From NCBI RefSeq assembly GCF_025231485.1, contig NZ_CP104003.1, positions 3,162,001 to 3,226,000 of the forward strand: a stretch of 64,000 nt of DNA, written 5' to 3'. The position numbers and the translations under genes were made by a program. Under the pieces are notes generated by a model, which did not search any database, had not been told where the DNA came from, and saw only the letters and a list, made by a program, of their open reading frames with translations. The DNA comes from Salinirubellus salinus. GTDB lineage: Archaea; Halobacteriota; Halobacteria; Halobacteriales; Haloarculaceae. Shown here piece by piece: positions 11,287 to 34,875 of this stretch; the stretch's first letter is position 1, and every line of letters begins with the position of its first letter.

Positions 11287-11480
11287 TCACTCCCCGTCCA
11301 GCCGCCGGTTCCACTCCTGCACTTTCGCTATCGCCGCCACGAGCGGCGTCTCGTTCACGTCCGGCCCGCGGAGTTCCTCCAGCACCGATTCGGTGGCGGA
11401 GTCGACAAGGTGTTTCTTTCCACCGCCGGTCGCGTCGCTCGACACCTTTCGGGGCAACTCTGTCCCCCGACAGAGATGTC
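11287..11480 (-). pseudogene. Orphan 3' tail of mutS
   Basis: Minus-strand reading gives ...TGGGKKHLVDSATESVLEEL, RGPDVNETPLVAAIAKVQEW, NRRLDGE, then TGA (11287-11289). It closely parallels the end of the intact MutS at 41002 (PATESVLDELRGTDVNETPP... KVQEWQSRLEEE). By eye, about two thirds of the bases agree over the last 120 or so. The rest of MutS is absent here. The orphan copy is GC-rich like the chromosome, whereas the tail now attached to full-length mutS looks more like the island. That suggests this is the ancestral end displaced by the island. Confidence 0.8.
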
Positions 11481-11962: not shown

Positions 11963-12189
11963 ATTTGGGGTGGGAATTGCCGTTCGTTCTCGTCCATTCA
12001 CCAGCGGGTCGGTTCGAGACGGGTGTCTCTTTGGCCGCCGAGGAGCCCCGCTTGGCCGAACGCATCGTGGGGAGGACTCGGCCGCCCCACGATCCGACCA
12101 CGGTGAGCCGAGCACTATGAGGTCGATGCCCGGACGTGAAGCGTCTCAAAGGCGCGGTTTGAACGGATTCGAGCGACCTGCTGCGGAGC

Positions 12190-12746
12190 GTCCGCCCTGT
12201 TACCAGCACAAACTCACGACGTGGTTCGTCAAGGAGCATAACGCCGTGTTCGTTGAAGACCTGAACGTCCAGAGTATGCTTCAGGGCGACGGGGATGCTC
12301 GGAACAAGCAGGCTGCGGCGTGGCGACAGTTCATCACCTTGCCCGAATACAAAGCCGACCTGTACGGCTGTCACGTCGTTCAGGTCGAAGTCCGAGGCAC
12401 CACCAAAGAGTGCGCGTCGTGTGGTGTAGAGACAGCGAAACTGGTCTGGGTGCGTGAACATTCGTGTCCGGCGTGTGGGTTCGAGTGTGACCGTGATGCG
12501 AACGCTTCGTTGAACGTCTTGCAGAGAGGTTTTTCTGAATTAGGGTTGGGATGGCCCGAATCAACGCCCGTGGAGACTGCGCTCCCTACGGCTACCCACT
12601 CGGTATCTGCAAAGCGCGTCGTGGAAACGGGAAGCCTCGGGGCTCGACCCCGAGGCGACTCACCGACGCCGTCAGAACGACCTGTCCCCCAATCGGTCAT
12701 CAGTAGTAGCATACAGGCGTCCACCGGCCTAAGCACGCTCTACTGA
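12190..12746 (+). pseudogene. tnpB: C-terminal half of a TnpB (IS200/IS605 OrfB), 5' truncated
   Basis: TnpB is an RNA-guided nuclease carried by IS200/IS605 elements. Only the C-terminal half is here, from about CYQHKLTTWFVKEHNAVFVE. Visible are the RuvC-II Glu (AVFVEDLNV), the zinc finger CASCGVET...CPACGFEC, and the RuvC-III Asp (CDRDANASLNVL). The N-terminal domain and the first RuvC Asp are missing. Its frame runs on through the element's right-end hairpin (12634-12656) to a TGA at 12744. No start codon or left end was recognised. It cannot be catalytically active. Left-junction debris of the island. Confidence 0.75.
12634..12656 (+). repeat. Right-end hairpin of the truncated TnpB element
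   Basis: Perfect 9-bp stem GCCTCGGGG / CCCCGAGGC with loop CTCGA, followed by GACTCAC. It occupies the place where the other TnpB-type elements of this window have a stem before a terminal TCAC. Confidence 0.6.
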
Positions 12747-12906: not shown

Positions 12907-13335
12907 ATGAGCGTCGTCAGTGTCTCGATGCCAGAAGAACTGCTCGAACGAATCGACCAATTCGCGGACGATCACGGGTACACGGGCCGGAGTGAGGTAG
13001 TCCGGGAAGCGAGCCGTAACCTCCTTGGTGAGTTCGAGGATAAGAAACTCGAAGATCGAGACTTGATGGGTGTCGTTACGGTGGTCTTCGACTACGAGAC
13101 GACGAGCGTCGAGGAGAAGATGATGCACCTCCGTCACGAGCACGAGGACATCGTCGCTTCGAACTTCCACAGTCACGTCGGCGGGCATCACTGTATGGAG
13201 CTGTTCGTGCTAGAAGGGTCGCTCCAGGAGATCTCGACGTTTGTCGGGAAGATTCGAGCGACGAAGGACACGCTCACGGTCGACTACTCCGTGCTGCCGG
13301 TGGACGACTTCGGCCCGCTCGCCGATATGAACTGA
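12907..13335 (+). CDS. NikR-like metal-responsive regulator 1 (canonical metal site)
   Basis: A 142-residue ribbon-helix-helix (CopG/NikR) transcription factor that would bind DNA as a tetramer when loaded with nickel or a similar metal. Residues 1-45 form the RHH domain ([25 protein letters not shown]). Residues 55-135 form the ACT-like metal domain, with a His in RHEHED and the full HxHx5C motif in [10 protein letters not shown]. It lies just upstream of, and codirectional with, an NMT1-like ABC cassette that it may control. The upstream DNA (12860-12906) is AT-rich (AATAATAACTCTTAATATTTTTTG) and serves as promoter. Confidence 0.9.
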
Positions 13336-13421
13336 TTCTGGTCGCCCTTCTCGCTTCATTCACGCCAACTTTAGCAATATCTCTGCTCTTCATCCCTTTT
13401 GAATATTAATCTGGGGCACCC

Positions 13422-13463
13422 AAATCACAGCTATTATTAGAAACGCATTCAAAGTTAGCAACA
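13422..13463 (+). promoter_or_regulatory. Promoter of the NMT1-like ABC operon, same layout as the Znu-like operon
   Basis: AAATCACAGCTATTATTA, then after 14 bases GTTAGCAACA ending 3 bases before the ATG. The Znu-like operon at 28327 has AAATCATAGCTCTTATTA and the same GTTAGCAACA, with exactly 32 bases between the starts of the two elements in both. The TTATTA part fits a TATA box about 25 bases before a start site in GTTAGCAACA. Confidence 0.6.
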
Positions 13464-13466
13464 CTG

Positions 13467-14498
13467 ATGGTTCAAATCTCGCGCCGAAGACTGCTCCAGA
13501 CGGGGACGGCCACGATTGCGACGGCTGGAATCGCTGGCTGTCTCGGTCAGCTCGGTCGAGGGGGCGGGTCGCTCGATTCCGTCACGGTCGCGTACGTCCC
13601 GATCTATCCGAACATGCAACACTACGTGATGGAACTGGAGGGCTTCTACGAGAACGTTCCAACGGACGTCTCCATCGAACGATTCAGCTCTGGTCCCAGC
13701 GTCGTCAAGGCGTTCGCCAGTGGGGACGTCGACGTCGCGCTCTTCGGCATCACCCCTGCGATGGTCCTCGTCGACAAGGGCACCGACGCCGGTGTCCTCG
13801 CGGCGAACTCGAGAAACGGCTTCAAAGTCATGGGGACGACCGAACTCGCCGATCTCTACGAACAGGAGGGGGCGGCCACGTTCGAGCGCTTCGAAAAAGA
13901 GCGCGGCCGCAAGGTCCGGTTCGGTGCCCCACCGGACGGGAGCGTCCCCGACATCGTCCTCCGATACTGGCTCCAGGAGGACCTCGGGGTCGGTGAGATG
14001 GAGTCCACGATCAACAAGTCGAAAGTTCCGCCCGCGAAGGCCGTCCAGACGATCCAGTCGGGCGACATCGACGCGACGATCATCCAGGAGCCGTTCGCGA
14101 CGATCATCGGACAGGACGATGGGTTCGGCGAACTCGCCTGGTCCGGAGAGATACTGGACAACCACCCCGTCACGGTGCTGTTCGCGAACCAGCGAGTGCT
14201 CGACGACAGCGCGGTCGCCCAGTCGCTCGTCGAACAGCACATCTCGGCGACCGAGTTCACGGCGGACTCACCGGACGTCGCCGCAGCCCACGCCGCGTCG
14301 GTGATCGGATCCGGCGTGAGCGAGGAGCTCGCGAAGGCCGCTATGGACTCGACGGCGTCGGAGTTCGTCTCGGACCCGCACGCGATCACCGATCAGGCCG
14401 CGACGATGGGTGAGTTCGTCGCCAACGTCGGCAACATTGAGGAGCCGGTCGCGACTGAGGACCTGTTCGCGTTCGACCCCTACGACGCACTCCAGTAA
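13467..14498 (+). CDS. ABC transporter substrate-binding lipoprotein, NMT1/SsuA-like
   Basis: Extracellular solute-binding protein of 343 residues. The N terminus has a twin-arginine signal ([10 protein letters not shown]) and a lipobox AGC with Cys at about residue 25, so it should be exported folded and lipid-anchored. From about residue 35 the periplasmic-binding fold of the nitrate/sulfonate/taurine (NMT1, SsuA, TauA) type follows, with [20 protein letters not shown] and [24 protein letters not shown]. The substrate cannot be read from sequence. Its position after NikR1 and its promoter shared with the Znu-like operon suggest a metal or metal-chelate. It begins a three-gene operon with 1-10 base overlaps. 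Confidence 0.88.
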
Positions 14499-15340
14499 TG
14501 GCTACGCAGACCGACACCGGTTCCAGCGTAGTCGTCGCCGGCAGCTTCGAGGGGGACCTGCGGCGGTATCTGCGCGGCCTGGGTGGTCTCCTCGTGTTCC
14601 TGCTGATCTGGTGGGTCGGCGCGATGACGACCCAGCCATCGTATCTGGTGCCGGGACCGCTCGACTCGGCGCGTGCGTTCGTCGACCTGTTCACGACCTC
14701 GACTGCGATCGTGGTTCCCGTACTGGGGTCGAGTCTGGTGTTGCCGACCGGGCTCGCACATCTCACCCAGACGTTGTTTCACTACGTGCCTGGCCTCCTC
14801 CTCGGTGCGGGCTGTGGGATCGGACTCGGACTGGGGATGGGCTGGAACGGGGCACTCGACGACTGGCTCCGGCCGCTCGTCCGGGTGCTGCGGCCGATTC
14901 CGCCACTGGCGTGGATCGTCTTCGCCATCGTCTGGTTCGGCATTCACCACACCGGCGCGGCGTTCATCGTCTTCGTGGGGGCGTTCTGGATCAACTTCTA
15001 CGGCGCCTACGGTGGCGTCGAAGGCGTCTCCAGCGACCTGACCGATGCGGCGTCGACGCTCGGTGTGGAGCGCGACCTCTCGATGCTGAAACTCGTCGCG
15101 CTCCCGAGCGCCGCGCCCCAGGTCCTGACGGGGTTCCGGACGAGTATCGGTCGCTGCTGGATGATCGTCGTCGGCGCCGAGTTGTTCGGCGCACCGGGCG
15201 TCGGCTACGAGATTATCAACGCCTCCAACAACCTCGCGATGGCGACCAGCGTCGCGTACATGTTCCTGATCAGTCTGGCGTTCCTCTGTATGGACGTCGG
15301 GTTCCGACTCGTCGAAGGGAGGGTGCTCGCGTGGCGCTGA
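14498..15340 (+). CDS. ABC transporter permease, SsuC/TauC-like
   Basis: Inner-membrane component (280 residues) of the NMT1-like importer. It has about six hydrophobic segments and the EAA-type cytoplasmic loop around residues 180-205 ([24 protein letters not shown]), which contacts the ATPase. ATG overlaps the stop of the binding-protein gene by one base (TAATG), so translation is probably coupled. BPD_transp_1 family by overall look. Confidence 0.88.
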
Positions 15341-16119
15341 GTACGGACTTCTCCAGCAGTCAGGAGTCAACGGAGAAGATCAGTGTACAGAACGTCAGCA
15401 AGGCGTACGAGTCGACGCGCGCGCTCGACGACGTCTCGTTCTCGGTGTCGGAAGGCGAGTTCTGCTGTATCGTAGGTCCCTCGGGGTGTGGAAAGACGAC
15501 GCTGTTGCGGGCGATCGCGGGCCTCGACGACCCGGACAGTGGGTCGATTCTGATCGACGGCGACCCGGTTACTGGCCCGGGGCTGGACCGGGGAATGGTC
15601 TTTCAGGAGTACGCGCTGTTCCCCTGGCGAACCGTCCGTGGGAACGTCCGATTCGGTCTCGACCGGCCCGCGTGCGACTGTGCGGACTGCGAGGCGCGAG
15701 TCCGGGAGCTGGTCGACCTCGTCGGGCTCGGCGGCTTCGAGGACGCGTATCCGAAGGAGCTGTCCGGCGGTATGAAACAGCGCGTCGGGATCGCTCGCGC
15801 GCTCGCCCCCGATCCGGAGACCCTCCTGATGGACGAACCGTTCGCCAGCGTCGACGCGCGGACTCGTGACCGCCTCCACGCAGAACTGCTCGATATCTGG
15901 ACACAGACCGAACAGACCGTCGTGTTCGTCACGCACGACATCGACGAAGCGGTGACGCTGGCCGACCGGGTCATCGTGATGGGCACTGATCCGGGGAGTG
16001 TGCAGTCGACGTTCTCGATCGACTTGGAACGTCCACGCGAACGAACGGACCACGACTTCGTGGAGTACGTCGCGCGCATTCGCGATGAACTCGGGAGTCC
16101 GGGCGACACTAACAGCTGA
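15331..16119 (+). CDS. ABC transporter ATPase, SsuB/TauB-like, with a cysteine cluster
   Basis: Energises the NMT1-like importer. The protein has 262 residues from a GTG at 15331 that overlaps the permease end by 10 bases. Motifs in order are Walker [10 protein letters not shown] (about 49-57), Q-loop FQEYALFPW (91-99), signature LSGGMKQR (about 142-149), Walker B LLMDEPF and switch His in VTHDID. Odd point: just after the Q-loop segment there is CDCADC (Cys at about 115, 117 and 120), a CxCxxC cluster not expected in this family, which could bind a metal or respond to redox. Confidence 0.9.
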
Positions 16120-16196
16120 CGAACTCTTGTGAGAAAATTATTAACCTAAATCTATCTAACCACCATATCTATTATCTTTGAGTTTGTTTTTAATAT

Positions 16197-16628
16197 ATGC
16201 CAATCGTGAGCTCCTCGATGCCGGAGCGACTCCGGGACGACCTCGATACGTTCGCGGAAGAACACGGCTACACTGGACGAAGTGAGGTCATCCGTGAGGC
16301 GTGCGAGTCGCTGCTCGACGAGTACCGGGAGACGGACTACGAGGGGCAGCGGGTATTGGCGACAGTTACCGCCGTTTTCGGTTACGACGAACCGGAGATC
16401 GAACGCCGCATGATGGATATCCGCCACGAGTTCGACGCGTCGATCCGGTCGAACTCTCACAACTGCCTCGAGGATAACGCTGGCTGTGTCGAGATGTTCG
16501 TCCTCGAAGCGGCGTACGAGGACGCCTTACGGTTCATCGGGACCGTCCGTGGAGCAGACGAGTCCGTCTCGGTCGAGTACACGATGGTGCCCGCCGATGT
16601 CATGAGCGCGGAGATCGGCCAGCAGTGA
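16197..16628 (+). CDS. NikR-like regulator 2 (altered metal site)
   Basis: A 143-residue RHH/ACT regulator. The DNA-binding part is intact (SSSMPERLRDDLDTF, GRSEVIREA). In the metal domain the expected HxHx5C is changed to SHNCLEDNAGC: the second His is Cys and the final Cys is one residue further away. Metal preference may differ from NikR1 and NikR4 (inference). The TnpB element at 16625-18074 was inserted exactly at the stop: the last codon is CA|G and TGA comes from the element. Without the insert the flanks would read CAG CAA TAG, so the protein is unchanged. Before insertion the gene stood about 140 bases from cbiM, its likely target. Confidence 0.88.
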   Translation: MPIVSSSMPERLRDDLDTFAEEHGYTGRSEVIREACESLLDEYRETDYEGQRVLATVTAVFGYDEPEIERRMMDIRHEFDASIRSNSHNCLEDNAGCVEMFVLEAAYEDALRFIGTVRGADESVSVEYTMVPADVMSAEIGQQ

Positions 16629-16687: not shown

Positions 16688-17773
16688 CTACGACACGACC
16701 TGTTCTCGCGGGGCGAACACCCCACTGTCTGAATCGAACAGGTGTACCGATGGCTGTGCCACACAGCCGTTACTCCTATCCTCGCCACGAGGACTCGGAG
16801 TTATCTTCTGCCTCATATTCTCCGCCCCGTTACAATCCGCATTCCCGACTAACCCACACGACGAGCACACGTACAATCCACGGTGCTTGCGGTTCGATTT
16901 CGTGTCGTCACCACACTTTGAGCAGGTCTTCGACGTGTTCCACTCGTTTTCTTTCAGCACCTCGACGCCACGAATCTCGCCTTTGTATTCGAGGTACTGG
17001 TAGATGCGGTCGAACGCCCACGTATGGAGTTTCTTGTTGCCGGTCTTACCCCAATCAGACTCACGCACGTCTTCGGGCCAACTCACCGCAAGCGTGCCCA
17101 CACCGCGTTCGACACATTCGGTGATGATGGTGTCCGTGAGCGTGTGGTAGAAGTGCGTTTCGCGCTCTGTGAGTTTCCGGCGTGCCCCCATCGACTTCTC
17201 GGACGGGCCGTTCTCACCTTCGGTGTCGTACTCGGCACGTTTGAAGTAGTGCTTGTCTTGCTTGAGCGAGTTACCGGGGTAGAGAACGTACTCGTCGGGG
17301 AAGGCGACCGTGGCGATGTTTTTGATGCCAAGGTCGACTCCAGCAACACCGTTGCCTGCTGAGTCGTTGGTTTCGACGTTGACTTTGCAGACAAAGTGCA
17401 GTTCCCATTCATCACCGTTCCAGACGGCGCGAACGTTCTGCACCGAGTTGACTTCCGAAAGGTCAACCTCGGGACGGGTCTGGTACTCGCAGAGCAAGAA
17501 GTCCGAGAAGTGTTCTTTGAGGTTCGAGCCTTTTGAGAGTCGAACGCGGTTGTTGTCGGGGTCGTGTTTGAAGCCGTCTTCTTTGAACGTGACCGTACTT
17601 TTGGGTCGGGTGTCGCCGTGTTTGCGGTAGCCGGGCGGATTCGCCTCGTCGAGCTTGTGTCGCAGGTCGAACCACGACTGGAAAGCGTCAGAAAGTTCTT
17701 CGATGACTTTCTGACTGGATTGTGCGTTCAAGTCTTTCCAGCACGACTGGTTCTTCATATACGATTTCAGCAC
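16688..17773 (-). CDS. tnpB: TnpB RNA-guided nuclease; conserved N terminus cut off by an amber codon
   Basis: RNA-guided DNA nuclease of IS200/IS605 elements. The open frame from GTG 17773 has 361 residues, with RuvC-I Asp (VDLGIKNIATV), a RuvC-II region (VSWPEDV), the zinc finger CSKCGDD...CSSCGL and RuvC-III Asp (NADCNGAENM). Coding similarity continues upstream in frame: ATG GCG ATC TAG at 17938-17927, then VTRTYVGSIQNHRQVYEGLD and on into the frame. The full gene therefore starts at 17938 but has a TAG at codon 4. Either the gene is dead, or a protein lacking about 50 N-terminal residues is made from GTG 17773. The 3' end of tnpB would also be the omega-RNA scaffold. Confidence 0.8.
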   Translation of the reverse strand: MLKSYMKNQSCWKDLNAQSSQKVIEELSDAFQSWFDLRHKLDEANPPGYRKHGDTRPKSTVTFKEDGFKHDPDNNRVRLSKGSNLKEHFSDFLLCEYQTRPEVDLSEVNSVQNVRAVWNGDEWELHFVCKVNVETNDSAGNGVAGVDLGIKNIATVAFPDEYVLYPGNSLKQDKHYFKRAEYDTEGENGPSEKSMGARRKLTERETHFYHTLTDTIITECVERGVGTLAVSWPEDVRESDWGKTGNKKLHTWAFDRIYQYLEYKGEIRGVEVLKENEWNTSKTCSKCGDDTKSNRKHRGLYVCSSCGLVGNADCNGAENMRQKITPSPRGEDRSNGCVAQPSVHLFDSDSGVFAPREQVVS

Positions 17774-18215: not shown

Positions 18216-18896
18216 ATGGCGCACATTCACCTCGGAGAAGGCTCGTTCCCGCTGTGGGCACTGGTACTCTGGACGCTGCTCGGCGTCGGACTGATCAGCG
18301 CCGTCGTCTACCGGGTCCGGAAAGGCGGTATCAAGACCCATCAGATCGCGCTCGCGGGCATCGGCGCGGCGGCGAGTTTCGCGATCTTCCAGTTGAACAT
18401 CCCCGTGTGGGGTGGCATCCACATGAACCTCACCGGCCTCGTCGGCATCCTCGCCGGCCCGCTACTCGGCGCGCTCATCGCACTGGTGGTGAACATCTTC
18501 TCGGCAGCGCTCGGGCACGGTGCAGTCGGCCTGCTCGGGGCGAACACGCTCGTCAACGCCTCTGAAGCTATCGTCGCCTACTACGCGTTCAAGACCCTGA
18601 TGGGGATGGACTGGGACGTCTTCCCGGCCAGCGCCAGTGCTGCGACGCTGGGCCTCTCGGCAGGCGCGTTCCTGATGGGAGCGATCATCGTCATCAGCGG
18701 TGTGAACGGGAGTGCACTGCCGCGTGGTGACCTGACGGTCGCGGTCGCTGGCCTCGTCGGCCTCAACCTCGGCGTCGCCGTCATCGAAGGCCTGCTCACG
18801 GGATTCATCGTCCAGTTCCTCGCCTCTGTCCGCCCCGACCTCGTCGGACTCACCGACCGCGATACCCGCGAGGAGACCACCGGGGTGACGGCCTGA
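18216..18896 (+). CDS. cbiM: ECF nickel/cobalt transporter S component, CbiM/NikM-like
   Basis: Substrate-binding membrane subunit of a nickel/cobalt energy-coupling-factor importer. It has 226 residues and about seven hydrophobic segments. The N terminus MAHIHLGEGSFP keeps the His-rich start needed for metal coordination in CbiM/NikM, though with Ala inserted after Met. WGGIHMNLTGLVGILAGPLLGALIA and GHGAVGLLGANTLVNA are family-typical patches. It heads an operon with CbiN-like, CbiQ and CbiO genes, the next ATG overlapping its stop by one base. NikR2 upstream is the obvious candidate regulator. Confidence 0.9.
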   Translation: MAHIHLGEGSFPLWALVLWTLLGVGLISAVVYRVRKGGIKTHQIALAGIGAAASFAIFQLNIPVWGGIHMNLTGLVGILAGPLLGALIALVVNIFSAALGHGAVGLLGANTLVNASEAIVAYYAFKTLMGMDWDVFPASASAATLGLSAGAFLMGAIIVISGVNGSALPRGDLTVAVAGLVGLNLGVAVIEGLLTGFIVQFLASVRPDLVGLTDRDTREETTGVTA

Positions 18897-19216
18897 TGCA
18901 GCGCTGGAAGCAGTACGGCGGCCTCGTCGGGCTGTTCGCGGCCTTCCTCGCCGCTGGGTACTGGGGCTTCACCGCGACTGGCGGCGCCCTGCCGTGGGCG
19001 AAGCGCTCCGCGAAAGCACTCCAGCGCGGCGTCCAAGAGAGTGGCGGCGCGCTCGTCGACCTCGGGCGCGGCATCGTCGTCGCTGGCCCCATCCGCAAAG
19101 GTGGGTTGATGCTCGAGTTCGGCGGGCTCGTCCTCCTCATGGTCGTGCTCGGTGTCGGTGTGTACGTCTACGTCGACCGCTACGGCGGCTTCGAGGACGG
19201 GGAACGCTCCGCTTAA
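18896..19216 (+). CDS. Small two-TM CbiN/NikN-like component
   Basis: A 106-residue membrane protein with hydrophobic segments at about residues 9-28 and 72-95 and a soluble loop between. Placed between cbiM and cbiQ with overlapping ends, it occupies the CbiN/NikN position, whose role is to help load metal into CbiM. Sequence similarity to CbiN is weak by eye, so the assignment rests on size, topology and position. Confidence 0.7.
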   Translation: MQRWKQYGGLVGLFAAFLAAGYWGFTATGGALPWAKRSAKALQRGVQESGGALVDLGRGIVVAGPIRKGGLMLEFGGLVLLMVVLGVGVYVYVDRYGGFEDGERSA

Positions 19217-19218
19217 CT

Positions 19219-20031
19219 GTGACGACACTCTCGAATCACGTTCCCGACCCGCGGCTCATCACGGCGTTCGCCGAACGGCGAGACGGGCCGCTGCACCGCG
19301 TCAATCCATGGACGAAGATCGGGGTCGTCGGCGCGCTCGTCCTCGCCGTCACGGTGTTCGACCGGCTCGCACTCCTGGCCGGACTGTACGGAGCCGTACT
19401 GGTGGTCTACGGACTCGCAGGGCTGCCCTTTCGGCGGCTCGCTGGCTGGTACACGCTCCCGATGCTGTTCATCGTCTCGGTCGCCGGGCCGCTGGCGTTT
19501 CTCGAACCGGGAACGCCGATCGGAGGCGCGCTCGCGACACCGCTCGGTGAACTCTCTGTCACGTGGGCAGGGCTCGTGCTCTTCGGGGAACTCACCTGCC
19601 GGTCACTCACGGTCGTCACGTTCGCCCTGACGGCGTCGATGACGACCAAATACACCCACGTCGCGTACATGCTCGGTCGATTGCTCCCGCGGCCGATCGA
19701 CCAGATCGCGCTGCTCACCTACCGGTTCACGTTCGTGATGATCGAGACACTCGAGGACTTGGTCAAAGCCGCGCTCTCCCGCGGCGCGAACTTCTCGGAG
19801 TTCTGGTCGAACAAGCGGCTGTACGCGAGAATCCTCGGGATGACGATGCTGTCGGCGATCGAGCAGTCGGAACGACTCGTCAAATCCATGGAAGCCCGTG
19901 GCTACAACGGCGACATCACGCTGTACGGCGACGTCTCGCGGCCCCCCGTCCACGAACTGTTCATCGTGGTGGGTTCGTACGTTGCCGTCGTCGGCTACGC
20001 CGCGGTCGCGGTCTACGGGGTGGGACTGTGA
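19219..20031 (+). CDS. cbiQ: ECF transporter T component CbiQ
   Basis: Membrane coupling subunit linking CbiM to the ATPase. It has 270 residues from a GTG at 19219, three bases after the previous stop. It contains RVNPWTKI near the N terminus, several membrane spans, the coupling-helix motif region LSRGANFSEF, and the second conserved Ala-Arg-Gly motif in SMEARGYNGDI. CbiQ/EcfT family. Confidence 0.9.
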   Translation: MTTLSNHVPDPRLITAFAERRDGPLHRVNPWTKIGVVGALVLAVTVFDRLALLAGLYGAVLVVYGLAGLPFRRLAGWYTLPMLFIVSVAGPLAFLEPGTPIGGALATPLGELSVTWAGLVLFGELTCRSLTVVTFALTASMTTKYTHVAYMLGRLLPRPIDQIALLTYRFTFVMIETLEDLVKAALSRGANFSEFWSNKRLYARILGMTMLSAIEQSERLVKSMEARGYNGDITLYGDVSRPPVHELFIVVGSYVAVVGYAAVAVYGVGL

Positions 20032-20903
20032 GCCGAGACCAGGTGCCGCTGGTGAACCTCCGGTGTGAGGCCCACACATACCCGGACGGGACGGTCGGGA
20101 TGCACGATGTCGACTTCTCGGTGTATCCCGACGAGGTCCTCGCACTCGTCGGGGGCAACGGTGCCGGGAAGTCGACCCTTCTCGAGCACTTGAACGCCAC
20201 GCTCGTTCCCGACGACGGCGAACTCGTCGTCGACGGCACGCCGATTACCGAAGACAACAAGGCATACGCGCGGACGGAAGTTGGTTTCGTCTTTCAGGAC
20301 GCCGATACGCAACTCGTCGCGCCCACGGTCCTCGATGACGTGATGTTCGGCCTCCAGAACTACGGCGTCCCCGGTGACGAGGCGAAACAGCGCGCTCGTG
20401 AGGCACTCGCGACCGTCGACGCGAGCCACCTCGAAGACCGAATCCCACACTACCTGAGCGGTGGCGAGAAACGCCTCGTCGGCCTCGCTGGCGTGCTGGT
20501 CCTCGAACCGAGCGTAATCGTGCTGGACGAACCCCTCGCGGGCCTCGACCCCGAGCGCTCTCGACTGGTCGCCGAGCGAATCGAGCAGATTCACCGAGAC
20601 GGTATCAGCGTCGTCCTGTCGACGCACGACCTCGAATTCGCCGCTGACGTTGCAGACCGTATCTGCGTGATGACTGATGGCAACGTCGTCGGGAACGGGA
20701 CGCCACGAGAGGTGTTCTACAACGACGCGTTGTTGGCGGAGGCGAACCTCCACCCACCGAGTGCAGTTCGTGTGGCTCGCGAGGCGGGGTTGGAGACGAC
20801 GGCACAGCCGGTGACGGAGGCGGATCTCGTGTCGCTCCTCACGGAAGCCACCGACGTGGCAACCACACAGACACCCTCTCCAGATGGGCGCGGACACGAC
20901 TGA
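20028..20903 (+). CDS. cbiO: ECF transporter ATPase CbiO
   Basis: ATP-hydrolysing subunit of the nickel/cobalt importer. It has 291 residues from a GTG that overlaps the cbiQ stop. Walker A is GGNGAGKST (near residue 44), the Q-loop VFQDADTQL is typical of CbiO/EcfA, the signature is LSGGEKRL, and Walker B is VIVLDEP with a D-loop AGLDPE. The C-terminal extension after residue 240 is variable. The next gene begins inside its last 20 bases. Confidence 0.92.
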   Translation: MSRDQVPLVNLRCEAHTYPDGTVGMHDVDFSVYPDEVLALVGGNGAGKSTLLEHLNATLVPDDGELVVDGTPITEDNKAYARTEVGFVFQDADTQLVAPTVLDDVMFGLQNYGVPGDEAKQRAREALATVDASHLEDRIPHYLSGGEKRLVGLAGVLVLEPSVIVLDEPLAGLDPERSRLVAERIEQIHRDGISVVLSTHDLEFAADVADRICVMTDGNVVGNGTPREVFYNDALLAEANLHPPSAVRVAREAGLETTAQPVTEADLVSLLTEATDVATTQTPSPDGRGHD

Positions 20904-21633
20904 GCGGCTCCCCCGGTATCTCGCGCCACTTCCTCGGCGGATCGAGACCGTTGCGTTGCGATACGCGTGGGTGATTGTCGCGATCAATGTCGCGGGAACG
21001 GCGTTCGGCTTCTGGTACTACATCCCACAGTTCCAACTCGAACCGGTCGTCGCGTGGCCAGTCGTCCCAGACAGTCCGACGGCTACGCTGTTCATCGCCT
21101 GCTCGCTGGCGCTGTACAAACTCGGCCGGTCGAACGAGTATCTGAATATGCTGGCGTTTTTCGGCTGCATCAAGCTCGGTCTCTGGACGCCGTACGTCCT
21201 GACAGTGTTCGCAGACGCGTTTCTCGCGACGGTCACGCCACCACCGCAGGTCGTTCCACTACTGGGACGAGAGTTCGCGTCGAACGCGATGTACGCGTTC
21301 CTGTTCGTCTCGCACCTCGGGATGGTCGTCCAGGCGTTCCTCATCCATCGCTACAGTGACTTTCCCAGTCGAGCGATTCTCGTTGCGCTGCTCTGGTACG
21401 GGTTCAACGACCTCGTCGACTATTTCGTTCCGATTGTCGGGACACCGCATCACACCCTGCTGCCGGTCGAACCGATTGTGAACGGCACCGTCCAGCACGT
21501 CTCCCCAGCACACGAGATCGCCGCCACGGGTGCCGTCGCGCTGACGGTGCTGGCGACAGTGGTTGCAGTTCTGACTCGCCGAGAGAAACAGCGTATTCGG
21601 GCGAGAACCGCTTCAGCGCCCGGCAGCCAGTAA
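20884..21633 (+). CDS. DUF1405 family membrane protein
   Basis: A 249-residue polytopic protein, function unknown. Recognisable DUF1405 features are FWYYIPQF and PVVPDSPTATLFIA, followed by six or so hydrophobic segments. A His-containing loop GTPHHTLLPVEPIVNGTVQH might bind metal. It overlaps the end of cbiO by 20 bases and so belongs to the transporter operon, although DUF1405 genes usually stand elsewhere. It converges on the PDGLE gene with a 21-base overlap. Confidence 0.8.
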   Translation: MGADTTERLPRYLAPLPRRIETVALRYAWVIVAINVAGTAFGFWYYIPQFQLEPVVAWPVVPDSPTATLFIACSLALYKLGRSNEYLNMLAFFGCIKLGLWTPYVLTVFADAFLATVTPPPQVVPLLGREFASNAMYAFLFVSHLGMVVQAFLIHRYSDFPSRAILVALLWYGFNDLVDYFVPIVGTPHHTLLPVEPIVNGTVQHVSPAHEIAATGAVALTVLATVVAVLTRREKQRIRARTASAPGSQ

Positions 21634-21924
21634 CCGTCCAAGTCCCAGCGCGAGGGTGAGCGTGAGCAGAGTGCCGAGGAATGCACCACCCAGTGTTCCA
21701 GCGTGTGGTCCGAGCCCCGGTAGTGCGTATCCCGAAAAGAGGCTTATACTGGTCGGCACAGCTCCGGAGGCAGCACCGGCGAGCGCAGCGGCGTTGTCCA
21801 TCGGCTCCGCGTACCTGGTCTGTCCAGCTGCCCACGCGAACGCTGGTGCGAGTACCACGAGTCCGAGGAGCCCGGCAAGCGAGCGTCGTTGCCACGGTGT
21901 CCGGACAAACGATCGGGCGCTCAT
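21613..21924 (-). CDS. PDGLE/CbiN-like accessory subunit of the second CbiM
   Basis: A 103-residue protein with two hydrophobic segments (about 17-33 and 78-95) separated by an extracytoplasmic loop, matching the PDGLE-domain partner of CbiM proteins in layout. The start ATG overlaps the stop of the upstream cbiM-like gene by 4 bases, implying translational coupling. The exact PDGLE tetrapeptide is not present: the corresponding loop reads RYAEPMDNAAALAG. The assignment therefore relies on context. Confidence 0.65.
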   Translation of the reverse strand: MSARSFVRTPWQRRSLAGLLGLVVLAPAFAWAAGQTRYAEPMDNAAALAGAASGAVPTSISLFSGYALPGLGPHAGTLGGAFLGTLLTLTLALGLGRLLAAGR

Positions 21925-22559
21925 GCGCGGATACCCTCCGGCTGGAGCTGTTCGGATTCGACGCCGGCGCGGTCGAGAAGCCACACTCCCGCGAGGGTGA
22001 GTACACCTTCACCGATACCGAGGATGAAGTGCCCACCGGTCATGATGGCGACGACCGCGATGAACTCACCGGTGAAGCCAGGTGAGACGCCCAGTTGCAG
22101 CCCGGCAGAGGCAGCAGCGACGGTGATCCCGATCCACCCGCTGGAGACGATTGCCAGCAGTTCGTTGCGGTCCGCGAGCGTCGTGTAAACTGCATACCCG
22201 ACGTAGGCTTGGACGATCGCCATGTTCCAGATGTTGGCCCCGAGTGCGAGTGCCCCTCCGTCACCGAAGACGAGCGCCTGGACGGCAACGACCAGTGCGA
22301 CGGCGAGTGCCCCCAGGTGAGGGCCGAGTACGATCGCGGCGAACGCACCGCCGACGAAGTGCGCACTCGTCCCGCCGGGGATCGGCCAGTTGAGCATCTG
22401 TGCGGCGAACACGGCTGCGGCGACGACGGCGAACAATTGAATCCGATACTCGGTCAGCGAGTCACGTACTCGCATTGTGGCGACGGCCAATACCGCGCCG
22501 GTGAGCAGGATGAACGCGCCTGCCATCCACGGATGTAAGAATCCATCTGGTGTGTGCAT
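21921..22559 (-). CDS. cbiM: Second ECF nickel/cobalt S component, CbiM-like
   Basis: A 212-residue membrane protein with the classical metal-binding N terminus MHTPDG (N-terminal amine and His2 coordinate Ni or Co in the family). About six hydrophobic segments follow, including GGTSAHFVGGAFAAIVLGPHLGALA and GANIWNMAIVQAYVGYAV. Only a small PDGLE-like gene follows and no second CbiQ/CbiO is present. It may therefore share the CbiQO encoded convergently next to it, or act alone as some CbiMN proteins do. It is divergent from NikR3. Confidence 0.88.
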   Translation of the reverse strand: MHTPDGFLHPWMAGAFILLTGAVLAVATMRVRDSLTEYRIQLFAVVAAAVFAAQMLNWPIPGGTSAHFVGGAFAAIVLGPHLGALAVALVVAVQALVFGDGGALALGANIWNMAIVQAYVGYAVYTTLADRNELLAIVSSGWIGITVAAASAGLQLGVSPGFTGEFIAVVAIMTGGHFILGIGEGVLTLAGVWLLDRAGVESEQLQPEGIRA

Positions 22560-22610
22560 CGATTCCGAGTTCCGTAGGTCGGGATATATGACTTCGGAAA
22601 CGAATCATAA

Positions 22611-22632
22611 TCTAGTCACCACAGTTACTAGA
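22611..22632. promoter_or_regulatory. Inverted repeat TCTAGT-N10-ACTAGA between cbiM-2 and nikR-3
   Basis: A perfect 6-bp inverted repeat lies in the divergent promoter. The same hexamer occurs at 28345 (Znu-like promoter, TCTAGT followed by ACTAGT) and at 36162 (ACTAGA, between cobW-3 and the FAD gene). It is a candidate operator; short enough to be chance. Confidence 0.35.
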
Positions 22633-22995
22633 CACTCATATGAATTCAGTTCTGATTAATACCCGATGCGCACGAGCTTCAATATCCCCGACGACCTCCT
22701 CTCCGAGTTCGATGAGACGTGGCAGGCAGAGGGATTAGATTCGCGTTCCCGTGGCGTCCGCGAGGCGATGCAGGAGTACATCGAGGCCCACACCAGACTG
22801 GAGGATATCGAAGGCGATGTCGTCGTTATCATCGCTTTCGATTACGAACACGAAGCGGTTATCGAAGAGATTCACGACGTACAGCATCAGTTTCAGGACG
22901 TTATCACGACCACGAATCGTATTCACGAAGGAGAGTGGTGTCTCGAGACGCTCTTCTGCAGCGGACCGGCACCGCGTGTCCGGGACCTCACCTAT

Positions 22996-23371
22996 CTTTC
23001 TACAAGGAGAGAATCCCGCCGTAAACGGCGGGCGTGAATCCGACAACGCACACACGGACCACGTTCTGACGCTACTACGGATATTTAAGCAGATGCGTGT
23101 TGTAGCATCACGTACACCGAGGCGGTTTCACCGCCACCTAAATGCACAATATCGGGACTCCGAGAACCAGTACGTTCGAGACACCCTCTCGAACCGCTGT
23201 GGTGTCTCGGTCAAGATAACTCCGAGTCCCCCTACCGGGGATAGGAGTAACGGCGGTGTGGCCCCGCCATCGGCCCGTCATGCCGACGAGTCGTCAACCA
23301 GCAACTATCCCAAACCAACGTTGCGGTGCGGACGTGGGAATCCCCGTCGTAAACGACGGGGAGGAGGTCAC
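22996..23371 (+). mobile_element. 376-bp TnpB-type MITE carrying the tnpB 3' end
   Basis: The left end CTTTCTACAAGGAGAGAATC plus stem CCCGCCG/CGGCGGG, and the right end GAATCCCCGTCGTAAACGAC then GGGGAGGAGGTCAC, match the ends of the TnpB element at 16625-18074. It lies directly after CTAT, like that element. It has no transposase or tnpB start. The interior from about 23215 matches the 3' end of that tnpB (shared CTCCGAGTCC and GGATAGGAGTAACGGC). Non-autonomous and presumably mobilised in trans. Confidence 0.78.
23200..23371 (+). ncRNA. Putative stand-alone omega-RNA (TnpB guide RNA) scaffold
   Basis: In TnpB systems the guide RNA scaffold comes from the 3' end of tnpB and the right end, and the guide is the sequence just outside the right end. 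This MITE keeps precisely that part (shared GGATAGGAGTAACGGC, then the right-end stem) without the gene. A transcript running past 23371 would carry CGCTTGCGTGATTTCG as guide. Joined to the inferred TAM CTAT, that is the uninterrupted nikR-3 sequence. Transcription is not shown by sequence. Confidence 0.35.
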
Positions 23372-23507
23372 CGCTTGCGTGATTTCGATGCGGTGAGTCG
23401 GGTCAAACTGATGCTCCTCGCGGAGCACTGAGCTGTTCTCACGGCTGACTCTGTTGAGGCCCTGGATTGATGGCGGTTTCCAACGAGCGTGCTGAATGCA
23501 GGGCGCA

Positions 23508-23648
23508 AGCCTTGTTTAGACGCTCCTGAAGGCGTTAGTCAGTGATTCTATCGACTGAACAGAATCTACCGACGAGTGCTTCTCCTCCCGATTTCATTCT
23601 TTGAGCAACGACCGTCTCGGGCGATCTACACCGCGTCTAAACAAGGCC
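23508..23648. mobile_element. 141-bp MITE with terminal inverted repeats and 9-bp target duplication
   Basis: The ends AGCCTTGTTTAGACGC (23508-23523) and GCGTCTAAACAAGGCC (23633-23648) are inverted repeats matching at 15 of 16 positions. They are flanked by identical CAGGGCGCA at 23499-23507 and 23649-23657. There is no coding capacity. It belongs to a cut-and-paste family, unlike the TnpB-type elements here; the source IS is not identified. Confidence 0.8.
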
Positions 23649-23714
23649 CAGGGCGCATTTTCAGCAGTTCAATTTCTCTGGTTGCCGGGGGTCCAGTAGA
23701 ACGTCTTTGGCGAA

Positions 23715-24089
23715 TCAGACCCGATCAAGAGCATCATCAATAGTCAGCGGGACTTCCTCGCCACTCACATCGAACCTTTGGAACCAACTCTCTTTCATTT
23801 CTCGTTTGAGCGTCATCCTGACCTCGGCGTGTGGGTTGCTCTCCACGAAGTTTTGGAGTGGCTCGTCACTTTCCCAGGCAGCAACCGCCCAGAACTTCTT
23901 CTGGGCTAATTTGGCGCGCAGGGCATAGCCGACCAACCCACCCGACTCCGCAAGTTGTGCTTCTATCTTCCGGGTATGCCAGAGAACTCTTGGCACTGTC
24001 CGGTACTGTGAAGGGTGCAGATACCCGACGACGCCTCGGAGTTCGGATTCCGGGTCAGGTTCAACGAACGATTGCCAGTCAAACTCCAT
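23715..24089 (-). CDS. Dimeric alpha/beta-barrel monooxygenase-like protein (DUF3291/CrtA-like)
   Basis: A 124-residue protein from ATG 24089 (MEFDWQSFVEPDPESELRGV); an upstream ATG at 24113 is possible. The pattern RVLWHTRKIEAQLAESGGLV, GYALRA and KKFWAVAAWESDEPLQNFVE resembles haem-binding or small-molecule monooxygenase-type dimeric barrels, including DUF3291 and spheroidene-monooxygenase-like proteins. No catalytic residue can be named. It stands alone between a MITE and nikR-4. Confidence 0.65.
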   Translation of the reverse strand: MEFDWQSFVEPDPESELRGVVGYLHPSQYRTVPRVLWHTRKIEAQLAESGGLVGYALRAKLAQKKFWAVAAWESDEPLQNFVESNPHAEVRMTLKREMKESWFQRFDVSGEEVPLTIDDALDRV

Positions 24090-24270
24090 GGTATGTGTTA
24101 TCGTACACTGCAATTCGAGATAACCGTTCCGTCACTGCTACACCTACACTGGTTCTGAAAGGTCCAGTTACTTGCGTGATGACACGGGTAGCTCGTGGAA
24201 CCCAGCGCTAAATTCAGCCTCTGTATGCAGCAGACGGCTCCTTTCAATTCCTGAGGATTTCAACACGGAA

Positions 24271-24702
24271 TCACGACTCGATGGGCTGATCAAGGGGGTC
24301 TTCGCCCAGCGAGGTAATCGAGTAATCCACTGCCCGGACATCCGGCACTGCCCGGACGGTGTTGACGAATCCGGATAGTACCTCCGTAGTTCCCTCTACG
24401 ACGAACAGTTCCATGCAGTACCGGTCCTGCACGTGTGCATGCGTGGTCGCGGAGACGATAGTATCGTACTCGTGGCGGACTCCTGTGAGACGCTGTTGAA
24501 CCCTCGGTTGACAGTACTCGAAGACCACTGTGACTGTACACATGTGCTTCTGCCCGTCGATATTTCGCCCCTGAAACTCTTCGAGCAGTGTGCGTGTGCC
24601 TTCGCGTACGACCTCGCTCCGGCCACTGTAGCCGTGTTCGCCGGCGAACTCGTCGATGCGCTCGAGTAACGCTTCGGGCATCGAGATGCTCACGACGCTC
24701 AT
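24271..24702 (-). CDS. NikR-like metal-responsive regulator 4 (canonical metal site)
   Basis: A 143-residue RHH/ACT regulator very similar to NikR1. It has VSISMPEALLERIDEF and GRSEVVREG in the DNA-binding part, a His in GVRHEYD, and the complete HxHx5C motif in THAHVQDRYC. It is divergently transcribed from the cobW-1/cobW-2/moaB operon with a 98-base shared promoter region, so it probably controls that operon and itself. Its metal could be nickel, cobalt or, in this zinc-chaperone setting, something else; sequence alone does not decide. Confidence 0.9.
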   Translation of the reverse strand: MSVVSISMPEALLERIDEFAGEHGYSGRSEVVREGTRTLLEEFQGRNIDGQKHMCTVTVVFEYCQPRVQQRLTGVRHEYDTIVSATTHAHVQDRYCMELFVVEGTTEVLSGFVNTVRAVPDVRAVDYSITSLGEDPLDQPIES

Positions 24703-24800: not shown

Positions 24801-26018
24801 ATGCCGTTCAACAACGACCCGATTCCGGTGACAATCCTCAGCGGAAGCCTCGGTGCTGGCAAGACGACGACGCTCAACCACATTCTCGGTAGTGAGCGAG
24901 AACTGAACGCCGCCGTCGTCGTCAACGACATGGGGGAGGTGAACGTTGACGCTGACCTCGTCGAACGCGAGTCGGAGCTCACCCAGAACGACGAGGAGAT
25001 CATCGAGCTGTCGAATGGCTGCATCTGCTGCCGTCTCCGTGGCGACATGCTCGACGAAGTGGGACGACTGGTCGAAGAGCGAGACTTCGAATACCTCCTC
25101 GTGGAATCGTCTGGAATCAGCGAACCGATTCCGGTCGCCCAGACGTTCGCCCGCGGATTCGAGGACGCCGAGTTCGACCCCACAGGCGTGTACGAACTCG
25201 ACACGATGGTCAGCGTCGTCGACGCACACAGCTTCTGGCAGGGTTTCGACTCCGGACAGGTGCTCACTGACGATGAAATGGAGCCGCAGGGCAATCGTGT
25301 CCCCGAGGAAGCCCTCATGGACCAGATCGAGTTCTGCGACGTCCTCCTGTTGAACAAGTGTGACCTCGTCCCGGACGACGAACTTGAGGAGATGGAGGCC
25401 GTCCTGAAGACGCTCCAACCGCGAGCGAAGATCATCCGGACCGAACACGGCGCCGTCGATCCCGAGGAGATCCTGAACACGGGTCGATTCGACTTCGACG
25501 CGGCGAGTCAGTCTGCTGGATGGAAGCGTGAACTCCAGCACGGACACCACCACGAGTCAGCCGCCGACGAACACGGGGTCACGTCCTTCGTCTTCGACGC
25601 CGACCGACCGTTCCATCCCGAGCGAATCGCTCGTCTCTTTACCGATCTTCCCGACGGCATCGTTCGCGCAAAGGGCTTTTTCTGGTCCGCCGGTCGCGAA
25701 GACATCGCGATGGGGCTTGACAAAGCAGGTCAGTCGGTCCGGGCCGGTCCGAAAGGGACGTGGATCGCCACGCTCCCGAAAGCCCAACAGGAGCGCTACT
25801 TCGCCGCTCGTCCCGGCATCAAAGAGGACTGGGACGACCAGTGGGGCGACCGCGGGACCCAACTCGTGTTCATCGGCCGCGAATTCGATCAGGAGACACT
25901 AATCGAACGACTGGAAGACTGTGTCCTCTCGGACGCAGAGATGGAGGAAGACTGGAGTGTGTACCCGGACCCGTTCGGTTTCGAGGACCAGCGCGAACTG
26001 GCGCTGGCCGACGACTGA
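24801..26018 (+). CDS. COG0523 (CobW/ZNG1) GTPase, putative metallochaperone 1
   Basis: G3E-family P-loop GTPase of 405 residues that uses GTP to deliver a metal (zinc, cobalt or iron-type, by paralogue) to target proteins. It has Walker A GSLGAGKTT (residues 15-23), the metal-binding CICC of NGCICC at residues 74-77, NKCD at about 190 and a C-terminal CobW_C domain (from about 265, TSFVFDADRPFHPERIARLF). Between the domains there is a short His patch HGHHHE. It starts an operon with cobW-2 (1-base overlap) and moaB, divergent from nikR-4. Confidence 0.93.
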   Translation: MPFNNDPIPVTILSGSLGAGKTTTLNHILGSERELNAAVVVNDMGEVNVDADLVERESELTQNDEEIIELSNGCICCRLRGDMLDEVGRLVEERDFEYLLVESSGISEPIPVAQTFARGFEDAEFDPTGVYELDTMVSVVDAHSFWQGFDSGQVLTDDEMEPQGNRVPEEALMDQIEFCDVLLLNKCDLVPDDELEEMEAVLKTLQPRAKIIRTEHGAVDPEEILNTGRFDFDAASQSAGWKRELQHGHHHESAADEHGVTSFVFDADRPFHPERIARLFTDLPDGIVRAKGFFWSAGREDIAMGLDKAGQSVRAGPKGTWIATLPKAQQERYFAARPGIKEDWDDQWGDRGTQLVFIGREFDQETLIERLEDCVLSDAEMEEDWSVYPDPFGFEDQRELALADD

Positions 26019-27328
26019 TGGCCGTCGACGACCAACCCCCGGTCACGATCCTCAGTGGTGGGCTCGGCGCCGGCAAGACGACCCTGCTCAACCACCTCCT
26101 CACCGTCGGCGGCGAACAGTACGACATCGCCGTTCTCGTCAACGACGTCGGCGAGGTGAACATCGACGCTGGCCTCATCGAAAGCGGCTCCAAGCTCTCG
26201 ATGGACGACGACGGGGTCACGGAGCTGTCGAACGGCTGTATCTGCTGTGGACTACAGAACGAACTCGATCGAGAGCTGAAACGTCTCGCGTTCGAAGCGG
26301 AGTTCGACTATCTGGTCATCGAGGCCTCGGGTATTAGCGATCCGGTCCCCATCGCACAGCGGTTCGTCTCACCCAAGCGTGCCTCCTTACTGTACGAGCT
26401 CGACACGACGGTCACCGTCGTCGATGCCAACCAGTTCCATCAGGCGTTCGTCCTTGAGGAACCTCTCAAATCGAGCGATGACGACACTCGACCACTGTCG
26501 GATCTACTCGCCGAGCAGGTCGAGTTCTGTAATATCGTCATCCTCAACAAGTGTGATCTCATCACTAACGAGGAGCGTGAGGCGGTCGAACGCGTCATCC
26601 GAACACTCCACCCCGGAGTAGACATCGTCCGGACGACCGAAAGCGCCGTCGACCCGGATCGAATCCTCGGAACGGGGCAATTCGACAAGGATGAGGCGAG
26701 TAACGCCGCCCGATGGAGACAAGTGCTCTCCGGCGACCACGGGGACAGCACGGATGCCGAGTTGCACGAGCATGACCATACCGAGGCAGAGACAGATCAC
26801 AACGACCACGAACACGAACATGGCGACGACCACGAACACGACCATCGTCACCCACCGGAGGAGTTCGGTGTCGACTCGTTCGTCTACGAGCGCCACCGGC
26901 CGTTCCATCCCGAACGCTTCAGCGAGTGGCTCCGCTCGTTCCCCGATTCCGTCGTCAGAGCCAAGGGCCACCTGTGGGTCGCTGGCCGCGAGCGCTACGC
27001 CCTCGACCTGAGCCAGGCGGGAACACAGACCCACGTCGGGGTCAACGGCCGGTGGGCGGTCACACTCCCCGAGTTCCAGCGCGAGTCCTACCGCGAATCG
27101 CGGTCGGACCTCCACTGGGACGAACAGTGGGGTGACCGCGAAGTGAAACTCGTCTTCATCGGGGCTGGGATGGACGAATCCAGTATCACCGACGGCCTTG
27201 ACGATTGCCTCGTCTCACAGACGGAGATGGAAGACGACTGGGAGGCGTTCGAGAATCCATTCCCAGGGACGATGGAGTGGTCGCAGCCCCCGATGGAACA
27301 GCGCTTCGTCGTGGGGGAACGACAGTGA
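26018..27328 (+). CDS. COG0523 (CobW/ZNG1) GTPase, putative metallochaperone 2, His-rich
   Basis: The second G3E GTPase of the operon, 436 residues, ATG overlapping the previous stop by one base. It has Walker A GGLGAGKTT, CICC at residues 74-77 and NKCD near 178. A long His/Asp/Glu linker at about residues 245-290 (HEHDHTEAETDHNDHEHEHG and on) lies before the CobW_C domain. Such His-rich stretches store or sense zinc or nickel in the family. Divergent enough from cobW-1 to suggest a different client or metal. Confidence 0.93.
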   Translation: MAVDDQPPVTILSGGLGAGKTTLLNHLLTVGGEQYDIAVLVNDVGEVNIDAGLIESGSKLSMDDDGVTELSNGCICCGLQNELDRELKRLAFEAEFDYLVIEASGISDPVPIAQRFVSPKRASLLYELDTTVTVVDANQFHQAFVLEEPLKSSDDDTRPLSDLLAEQVEFCNIVILNKCDLITNEEREAVERVIRTLHPGVDIVRTTESAVDPDRILGTGQFDKDEASNAARWRQVLSGDHGDSTDAELHEHDHTEAETDHNDHEHEHGDDHEHDHRHPPEEFGVDSFVYERHRPFHPERFSEWLRSFPDSVVRAKGHLWVAGRERYALDLSQAGTQTHVGVNGRWAVTLPEFQRESYRESRSDLHWDEQWGDREVKLVFIGAGMDESSITDGLDDCLVSQTEMEDDWEAFENPFPGTMEWSQPPMEQRFVVGERQ

Positions 27329-27897
27329 TCCGGAATCGTCGGGAACTCCCACCACGGGAGGACCGACGGACGACGGATTCCGACGGTCACGACTGTCTCG
27401 ATCCGCTGGGCGTGGCCATCGTAACCGTGTCCTCGTCCCGCGGGGATAGCGTCGAAAAGACGCCACCCGATCCCAGTGGTGACGCCGCTGCGAGTATCCT
27501 CATCGAAGCGGGTCACGTCGTCACGTCACGCCAGATGGTTCCGGACGACTACGTCCGGATCAAGACCACAGTGAGCGAGTGCCTGGATCGGCCGGACGTC
27601 GACCTCGTCGTCACCACGGGCGGGACGGGCGTCACCGTCGACGACGTTACTCCGGACGCGGTGAGCGAGCTCTTCGACCGCGAACTGCCGGGCTTCGGCG
27701 AGGCGTTCAGATGGCTCTCGTGGGAGGAGGTTGGGACGCGTATCGTTTCGACTCGTGCGACAGCGGGCATCGCCCGCGACGTACCGGTGTTCGTCCTACC
27801 GGGAAGTGTGAATGCCGTCAAGCTCGCCACGGCAGAGATTATCGTCGAAGAAGCCCCGCATCTCGCCGGACTCGCAACCCGACACAAGGTGGAGTAG
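27325..27897 (+). CDS. moaB: MoaB/MogA-like molybdopterin adenylyltransferase family protein
   Basis: Family members adenylylate molybdopterin before Mo or W insertion. The protein has 190 residues from a GTG at 27325 overlapping the cobW-2 stop. It contains LGVAIVTVSSSR, the substrate-binding TTGGTGVTVDDVTPDA, and ELPGFGEAFRWLSWEEVGT, the usual MoaB pattern. The N-terminal 30 residues are an extra hydrophilic stretch. Its translational coupling to two CobW genes is unusual; it may be a metal-conditional paralogue of the housekeeping MoaB (inference). Confidence 0.85.
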   Translation: MIRNRRELPPREDRRTTDSDGHDCLDPLGVAIVTVSSSRGDSVEKTPPDPSGDAAASILIEAGHVVTSRQMVPDDYVRIKTTVSECLDRPDVDLVVTTGGTGVTVDDVTPDAVSELFDRELPGFGEAFRWLSWEEVGTRIVSTRATAGIARDVPVFVLPGSVNAVKLATAEIIVEEAPHLAGLATRHKVE

Positions 27898-28230
<333 letters not shown>

Positions 28231-28326
28231 CAACGATTAGCAATTCCGGGGCCCACGTTAGTTACCCCGGCAACGGTTAGTAAGAATCTATCTCGCTTAG
28301 TCAAATGTTATTAAAACCATTGTAAA

Positions 28327-28368
28327 AAATCATAGCTCTTATTATCTAGTCTACTAGTGTTAGCAACA
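28327..28368 (+). promoter_or_regulatory. Promoter of the Znu-like operon
   Basis: AAATCATAGCTCTTATTA (28327-28344) and GTTAGCAACA (28359-28368), the latter one base before the ATG. The two elements and their spacing match the promoter at 13422-13463. TGTTAGCAACA is a near-palindrome centred on the probable transcription start. Confidence 0.6.
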
Positions 28369-28369
28369 G

Positions 28370-30956: not shown

Positions 30957-30958
30957 CC

Positions 30959-33686: not shown

Positions 33687-33746
33687 CGAGTCACTTCTGG
33701 GACCGAATGTCCGGTCCAAGTCATCCACGAGTAGCGGCCGGCAGCC

Positions 33747-34238: not shown

Positions 34239-34312
34239 GTTCGTGGCTTCGTCTCGCACCGAAAAATCAGTATCGTGGCCGAGACAGATCTGTTCCGTGG
34301 CGTAGTGATTGC

Positions 34313-34465: not shown

Positions 34466-34603
34466 TACATTAACAACCGAGTCTCCGAGACACTAAAAGG
34501 GTTATTAAAAATGGGGCCAGAGTGATTGATACGGACTAGTAAATCGACTCTCCAGCTAACTAAGATTGACCGGGTGGGACGTCCAAAAAGCCCGGCCCGA
34601 CCA

Positions 34604-34873: not shown

Positions 34874-34875
34874 CG

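Follow-up and report, generated by a model that had tools for sequence, protein, structure and literature searches.

A probable decayed integrative element in the 3' part of mutS of the haloarchaeon Salinirubellus salinus

The mutS gene of Salinirubellus salinus carries a 3' part that it shares with haloarchaea of other genera, and a second mutS 3' end lies at the far side of an island of metal genes next to it. We are confident, though short of certain, that this island is the decayed form of an integrative element belonging to a group that targets mutS in haloarchaea, and that a tyrosine recombinase inserts these elements in a conserved stretch of the gene. The DNA analysed, referred to below as the window, is a stretch of 64,000 nucleotides (G000:C1:3162001-3226000) from a genome of 4.38 Mb, which is the sole member of its genus among the genomes compared. 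Its features are collected in Table 1.

The mutS gene of the window is intact and codes for a protein of 897 amino acids that matches the mutS1 model of NCBIfam with an E-value of 1e-248. Its last 45 codons, together with the stop codon, are present a second time, 29.7 kb downstream in the same orientation. The two tails are 73% identical over 119 nt (repeat family D9), a protein search recovers the orphan tail with 59% identity and an E-value of 4e-11, and no further mutS tail exists elsewhere in the genome. A first-pass annotation, made from the letters of the window alone, had described a duplicated mutS 3' tail whose two copies bracket an island in the same orientation, and the protein and nucleotide matches confirm this. 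The coordinates that it gave were right to within a few codons, except at one end: homology of the orphan is recognisable to about 11424-11433 and not to 11480.

Table 1. Features of the mutS locus and the adjoining island, with positions counted from the first letter of the window
Feature	Position	Strand	Remarks
Stranded native mutS 3' end	11287..11424	-	45 codons plus stop
TnpB C-terminal fragment (Cas12f1-like TNB), near orphan	12120..12746	+	
Cargo: NikR, NMT1-like binding protein, permease, ABC ATPase, NikR-like	12907..16628	+	
TnpB (OrfB_IS605)	16688..17773	-	
Cargo, nickel/cobalt ECF transporter: CbiM, small ORF, CbiQ, ABC ATPase, DUF1405	18216..21633	+	
Cargo: CbiM (minus), NikR-like (plus), NikR (minus)	21921..24702		
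Cargo: two CobW GTPases, MoCF-domain protein, ZnuA, ABC ATPase, ABC-3 permease	24801..32014	+	
Cargo: two flavin oxidoreductases, CobW (minus), FeoB-like protein, DUF7124, cupin (minus)	32044..40114		
IS605/IS1341-type end, hairpin plus GAGGATGTCA (I18)	40893..40934	+	abuts integrase stub
Tyrosine recombinase C-terminal stub HEDIESRYRERIYRLFQPRGDTSSLLF	40933..41016	+	convergent with mutS; stop TAG 41014-41016
mutS, chimeric, intact	41002..43695	-	897 codons, TIGR01070
Low-GC final 45 mutS codons	41002..41139	-	GC3 0.60; perhaps exchanged separately and later
mutS 3' module	41002..41538	-	codons 720-897; shared with element-bearing genomes of other genera
FATHYHEL motif, conserved	41476..41499	-	orphans of other elements start around here
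Native host 5' part of mutS	41539..43695	-	codons 1-719, ends AWAATEYL; outside module grouping

The two tails differ in composition. The one now on mutS has a GC content of 59%, and its GC3 lies below that of every 45-codon window in the 5' part of the gene (minimum 0.78), a part with a GC content of 70% and a GC3 of 0.91. The corresponding values for the orphan are 66% and 0.82, and GC3 in the middle of the 3' module is 0.89. The first reading had proposed to map the composition shift inside mutS near 41140: GC3 falls to 0.60 in the last 45 codons, precisely the stretch of mutS that the orphan duplicates. The island itself has a GC content of 61%, against 70% in its flanks.

The earlier statement that no integrase gene is visible is right in that no PF00589 match, and hence no intact integrase, was found in the island. 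It missed a remnant beside mutS, the C-terminal stub of a tyrosine recombinase with about 27 residues left, whose reading frame stops 12 nt inside mutS. Several facts of the window are weak singly, among them this stub by BLAST alone (E 0.58). Against a C-terminal motif built from 28 members of the integrase family, the window excluded, the stub scores 41.7 bits: in 5.7 million translated positions, which comprise all the sequence fetched, all others scoring at least 41.7 bits are integrases of the family. The best score otherwise outside an integrase context, 26.9 bits, belongs to a stub beside mutS in G095, and the next is 21.6. The genomes G096 and G048 have a recombinase gene that converges on mutS, its frame ending at the mutS stop codon. 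The G096 recombinase scores 36.8 bits with PF00589, above the cut-off; that of G048 is 54% identical to it and scores 22.4 bits, below the cut-off, with candidates for the catalytic R, HxxR and Y, read by eye, in GLRVGE, HFGRH and a Y near the C-terminus. Over its catalytic C-terminal half the G048 integrase matches archaeal XerA (NF040815, E 5.8e-9; PDB 4a8e, E 0.0022), but its NF040815 score is far below the XerA cut-off, 35.9 against 220 bits. A stub of 74 residues, 64% identical and joined to a TnpB gene, lies beside mutS in G431, and recombinase stubs are also present there in G095 and, very short, in G092. An integrase or its stub thus stands beside mutS in six lineages. In the window, the IS605/IS1341-type end directly before the stub, of which there is a matching copy at 16626-16667, means together with the stub that the integrase was lost and was not absent from the start. 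Presumably the IS605-type element removed it.

No tRNA gene was found beside any of 30 members of the integrase family. Four members with a possible gene target lack a duplicate gene end in the stretches fetched, and for this reason we make no general claim that the family targets protein genes. At L176, L179 and L185, relatives of the mutS-site integrase end near histidine-kinase-like genes and converge on them, hinting at other coding-gene targets; in the stretches fetched there, no duplicate gene end was found.

The 29.6 kb between the two mutS tails contain mostly metal genes, plus TnpB genes. The former encode NikR-type regulators, CbiM/CbiQ/ATPase transporters, CobW GTPases, ZnuA with an ATPase and a permease, and a FeoB-like protein. 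Among those cargo genes of the window that were scanned with Pfam there were no relaxase, conjugation or capsid genes. The TnpB fragment next to the orphan tail is likely to be the agent that eroded the orphan's end. Several smaller features of the island may be mentioned. Three CobW paralogues and four NikR-type regulators occur in this one island between 12907 and 36150, so that its metal genes look like several modules merged. Beside the orphan tail, at 11490-11960, a TCCAAACTCG-like motif occurs about six times within 500 bp, in either orientation; the copies lie in DNA without a clear gene and are possibly a left-end feature of the element. A CCCGCCGTAAACGGCGGG-type hairpin is repeated, again in both orientations, at 18026-18069, 23005-23052, 28158-28204 and 40371-40422, and looks like the ends of IS605-type or small nonautonomous elements.

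The arrangement is not confined to S. salinus. When the 44-residue tail was used as a query in 148 genomes of the family, nearly all gave a single match and a few gave two. In Haloglomus irregulare (G048, L116), Halorarius litoreus (G068, L042), Halorientalis regularis (G081, L056), G095 and G096 the extra match lies 2.5 to 54 kb downstream of mutS and on its strand; a sample of the whole order adds G250 and G431, and over all seven the distance ranges from 1.7 to 54 kb. At least seven haloarchaeal genomes besides that of S. salinus have mutS, an island and a stranded end in this arrangement. Except for TnpB, none of the window's cargo proteins was found in the other mutS islands. The orphans of G048, G095, G096 and G250 are long, each starting within a few codons before KTLFATHYHEL, and a conserved stretch is shared in these four; on the orphan side of the window the FATHYHEL-region site is absent. 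The native sequence on the stranded side starts about 20-25 nt further upstream in G048 and G250 than in G095, G096 and G092. One clean identical core between the L and R sides of an element is seen only in G092 (L166), where a near-identical second copy of the mutS integration stretch, about 50 bp long, lies 4.1 kb downstream of mutS. With the residual integrase C-terminus beside its mutS, G092 is a nearly erased element.

Some candidates were set aside. Second full-length mutS matches in several genomes of the order are paralogues and not orphans, and G345 and G373, singled out at first for their short frames, lack a second end: each has a single mutS, split across frames. A separate case is G249 (L204, L205; G249:C1 3455501 and 9101), with two mutS copies about 37 kb apart across contig ends, one of them split over two frames; about 2.7 kb separate one copy from a recombinase gene. 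No free circular form of a mutS element and no attP were found in the viral contigs, phages or plasmids searched: the matches in viral contigs are whole bacterial mutS genes beside prophages, the phages gave no match, and the plasmids gave distant integrases only.

The linker between AATEYL and FATHYHEL usually has 11 residues including YL (YLHNEVRAKTL and similar). The 3' module of the window opens with a rare linker of 15 residues, having SSAQSNVASPKVL in place of the usual HNEVRAKTL. Linkers of this SSAQ...SPKVL type are shared by the window, G068, G048, G049, G085, G087, G089 and two Haloquadratum genomes, while the congeners G067, G047, G050, G088 and G090 have the usual one. In a tree of the sequence after AATEYL, the window, G048, G049, G068, G085, G087, G089 and Haloquadratum J07HQW1 form one group (0.987); in a tree of the sequence before it, each of these module carriers sits with its own genus, in conflict with the 3' tree. 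When the groupings are crossed, the AU test rejects both: the host grouping does not fit the 3' part of mutS (p 1.2e-4), nor the module grouping its 5' part (p 2.8e-5). In Haloquadratum walsbyi J07HQW1 and J07HQW2 (L098, L119) the SSAQ-type linker occurs with no orphan found nearby, suggesting an old exchange of the mutS end in that lineage.

If the stranded ends are the native ones, they should resemble the mutS ends of relatives. In the window, the tails of all 107 relatives are closer by protein identity to the 41-kb copy than to the orphan, and when nucleotides are compared, the two copies are equally near to the closest genus (0.77 against 0.75). The first-pass annotation had set store by this comparison, but since an orphan is free to drift, the result is expected under either reading. 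The comparison in the window cannot decide, nor can a tree, for which the window orphan is too short, and the decision therefore rests on orphans that are better preserved elsewhere. That of G048 groups with its congeners G047 and G050 (support 0.995) and that of G250 with Halobellus (0.955), whereas no such grouping with the genes of island-free relatives is seen for the 3' ends that mutS has today. Furthermore, the DNA following the G250 orphan aligns from its start with the DNA following mutS of Halobellus salinus (2.86 kb, 78%); the same holds for G068 with G067 and, in part, for G096 with G094. The genomes compared contain no empty site for the window itself, none of them being close enough; its left flank has no synteny with the DNA after mutS of related genera, and DUF1269, which had been proposed as the former neighbour of mutS, was not found near any mutS locus read. 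For this class of loci, comparison with relatives supports what was first proposed for the window, namely that an incoming segment brought its own mutS tail, restored the reading frame and stranded the native end.

The following sequence of events could account for these observations. The target would be the stretch around the MutS motif ATEYL...KTLFATHYHEL, and a circular element would use a copy of the mutS 3' part beside its integrase gene as attachment site. Recombination would join the 5' part of the host gene to the 3' part from the element, so that mutS stays open, and the host's own 3' end would be left at the far end of the element, behind its nickel, cobalt, zinc and iron genes. In the window the integrase would later have been removed, leaving an IS605-type end against its last 27 or so codons, and the stranded end would have been shortened. 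Site-specific integration by a tyrosine recombinase is very probably the mechanism. With its integrase removed and its stranded end shortened, the element of the window is probably immobile now. As for mutS, the exchange may extend beyond the last 50 codons of the first reading, from the stop codon to about codon 720, or the gene may have been hit twice.

If it was hit twice, an older element would have given the SSAQ-type 3' module from codon 720 on, and the present island would have come later with a junction at about codon 850. This second arrival would have brought the low-GC last 45 codons alone and stranded the tail that was then current. We take this to be a serious possibility that falls somewhat short of probable. 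The drop in GC3 relative to the middle of the module occurs exactly in the 45 codons covered by the orphan, and the middle most resembles that of other module carriers; the tail shows no specific likeness to theirs, 45 codons being few for a test of affinity. Yet none of the other genomes shows a further site around codon 850, and the orphans of G068, G081 and G431 are short too and begin at differing points, as erosion would give; an IS605-type end lies close above that of G068. Either there was a double exchange, or the orphan was eroded and matches the extent of the low-GC tail by chance.

Other explanations dispense with the integrase or with the element altogether. Haloarchaea freely exchange DNA and the island has no intact integrase, so homologous or homology-assisted recombination with a donor that had the island after its mutS might be considered. 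This is improbable: nearly one breakpoint is common to independent lineages with unrelated cargo, integrase or stub recurs beside mutS in those six lineages, and among the loci read no relative has the window's cargo next to mutS. Local duplication of the mutS end with subsequent divergence gains some room from there being a single genome of the genus, and still appears very improbable, as the copies differ in sequence as much as copies from different genera do and also in GC3, they bracket an island of deviating GC, and the pattern recurs elsewhere with mobile modules. That an assembly artefact fused the mutS genes of two organisms is scarcely credible; mixed composition is all that speaks for it, the contig is 4.13 Mb long, and the arrangement recurs in complete genomes. 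Insertion of a mutS-targeting element thus remains our preferred reading.

Events of this general kind are already known. In Escherichia coli, the element e14 in icd brings a substitute 3' end for the host gene and strands the native end. The haloarchaeal elements likewise supply a replacement gene end; e14 differs in gene, domain of life and recombinase. In thaumarchaea, integrated elements occupy 3'-distal parts of protein genes (Krupovic et al. 2019, PMC6563490). Protein genes are the target of 14 of 68 elements with defined sites, and an AsnC-type regulator and dihydroxy-acid dehydratase are among the products of the target genes named there; a review covers further coding-gene targets of archaea (PMC8371274). 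Those elements too are archaeal tyrosine-recombinase elements inside the 3' part of a protein gene, but mutS is absent from the text of PMC6563490, and in the haloarchaea an exchanged end of about 45-178 codons can be traced across genera by phylogeny. In bacteria, the islands GI8c of Burkholderia pseudomallei, a putative prophage, and Bt-GI4 of B. thailandensis are situated at mutS, and their opposite end holds a partial copy of the gene, as in our case; their discoverers regarded mutS-specific recombination as a first report and mutS 3' ends as a hotspot (PMC2612704). They have a 15-bp direct repeat, ACGCCGATGATGCAG, and recombinases of no known relation to ours. The SpyCI islands of Streptococcus pyogenes also integrate site-specifically into a mismatch-repair gene, but at the 5' end of mutL, reversibly turning the gene off (PMC4689407, PMC3430984), whereas the haloarchaeal insertions replace the 3' end of mutS. 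Since the mutS frame is kept, no mutator switch comparable to that of SpyCI is predicted.

Given integration into the 3' part of archaeal protein genes, the Burkholderia islands at mutS, the S. pyogenes islands at mutL and e14 in icd, the present case is a variant. What is new is that the target is an archaeal mutS, that the integrase lineage is a distinct one and that genera have exchanged a gene end; no report of integration into an archaeal mutS was found in the literature searched, most subscription journals lying outside its scope. One further speculation can be made. If the mutS end borne by the element alters MutS in its helicase-side ATPase and C-terminal region, carriers would differ in mismatch repair or in their tolerance of recombination with diverged DNA, and this would favour the uptake of such islands. 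We think it unlikely.

With this finding, mutS joins the list of integration targets seen in archaea. A review of 2021 pointed out that integration into archaeal coding genes still awaited testing, both in vivo and in vitro (PMC8371274), and the mutS elements, with two apparently intact integrases at hand, offer a testable case. They also explain how a multi-metal island could enter a core gene without breaking it. In these haloarchaea a housekeeping repair gene is a mosaic, its last fifth exchanged between genera by mobile elements, and this is a warning against phylogenies of haloarchaea that are based on the whole of mutS.
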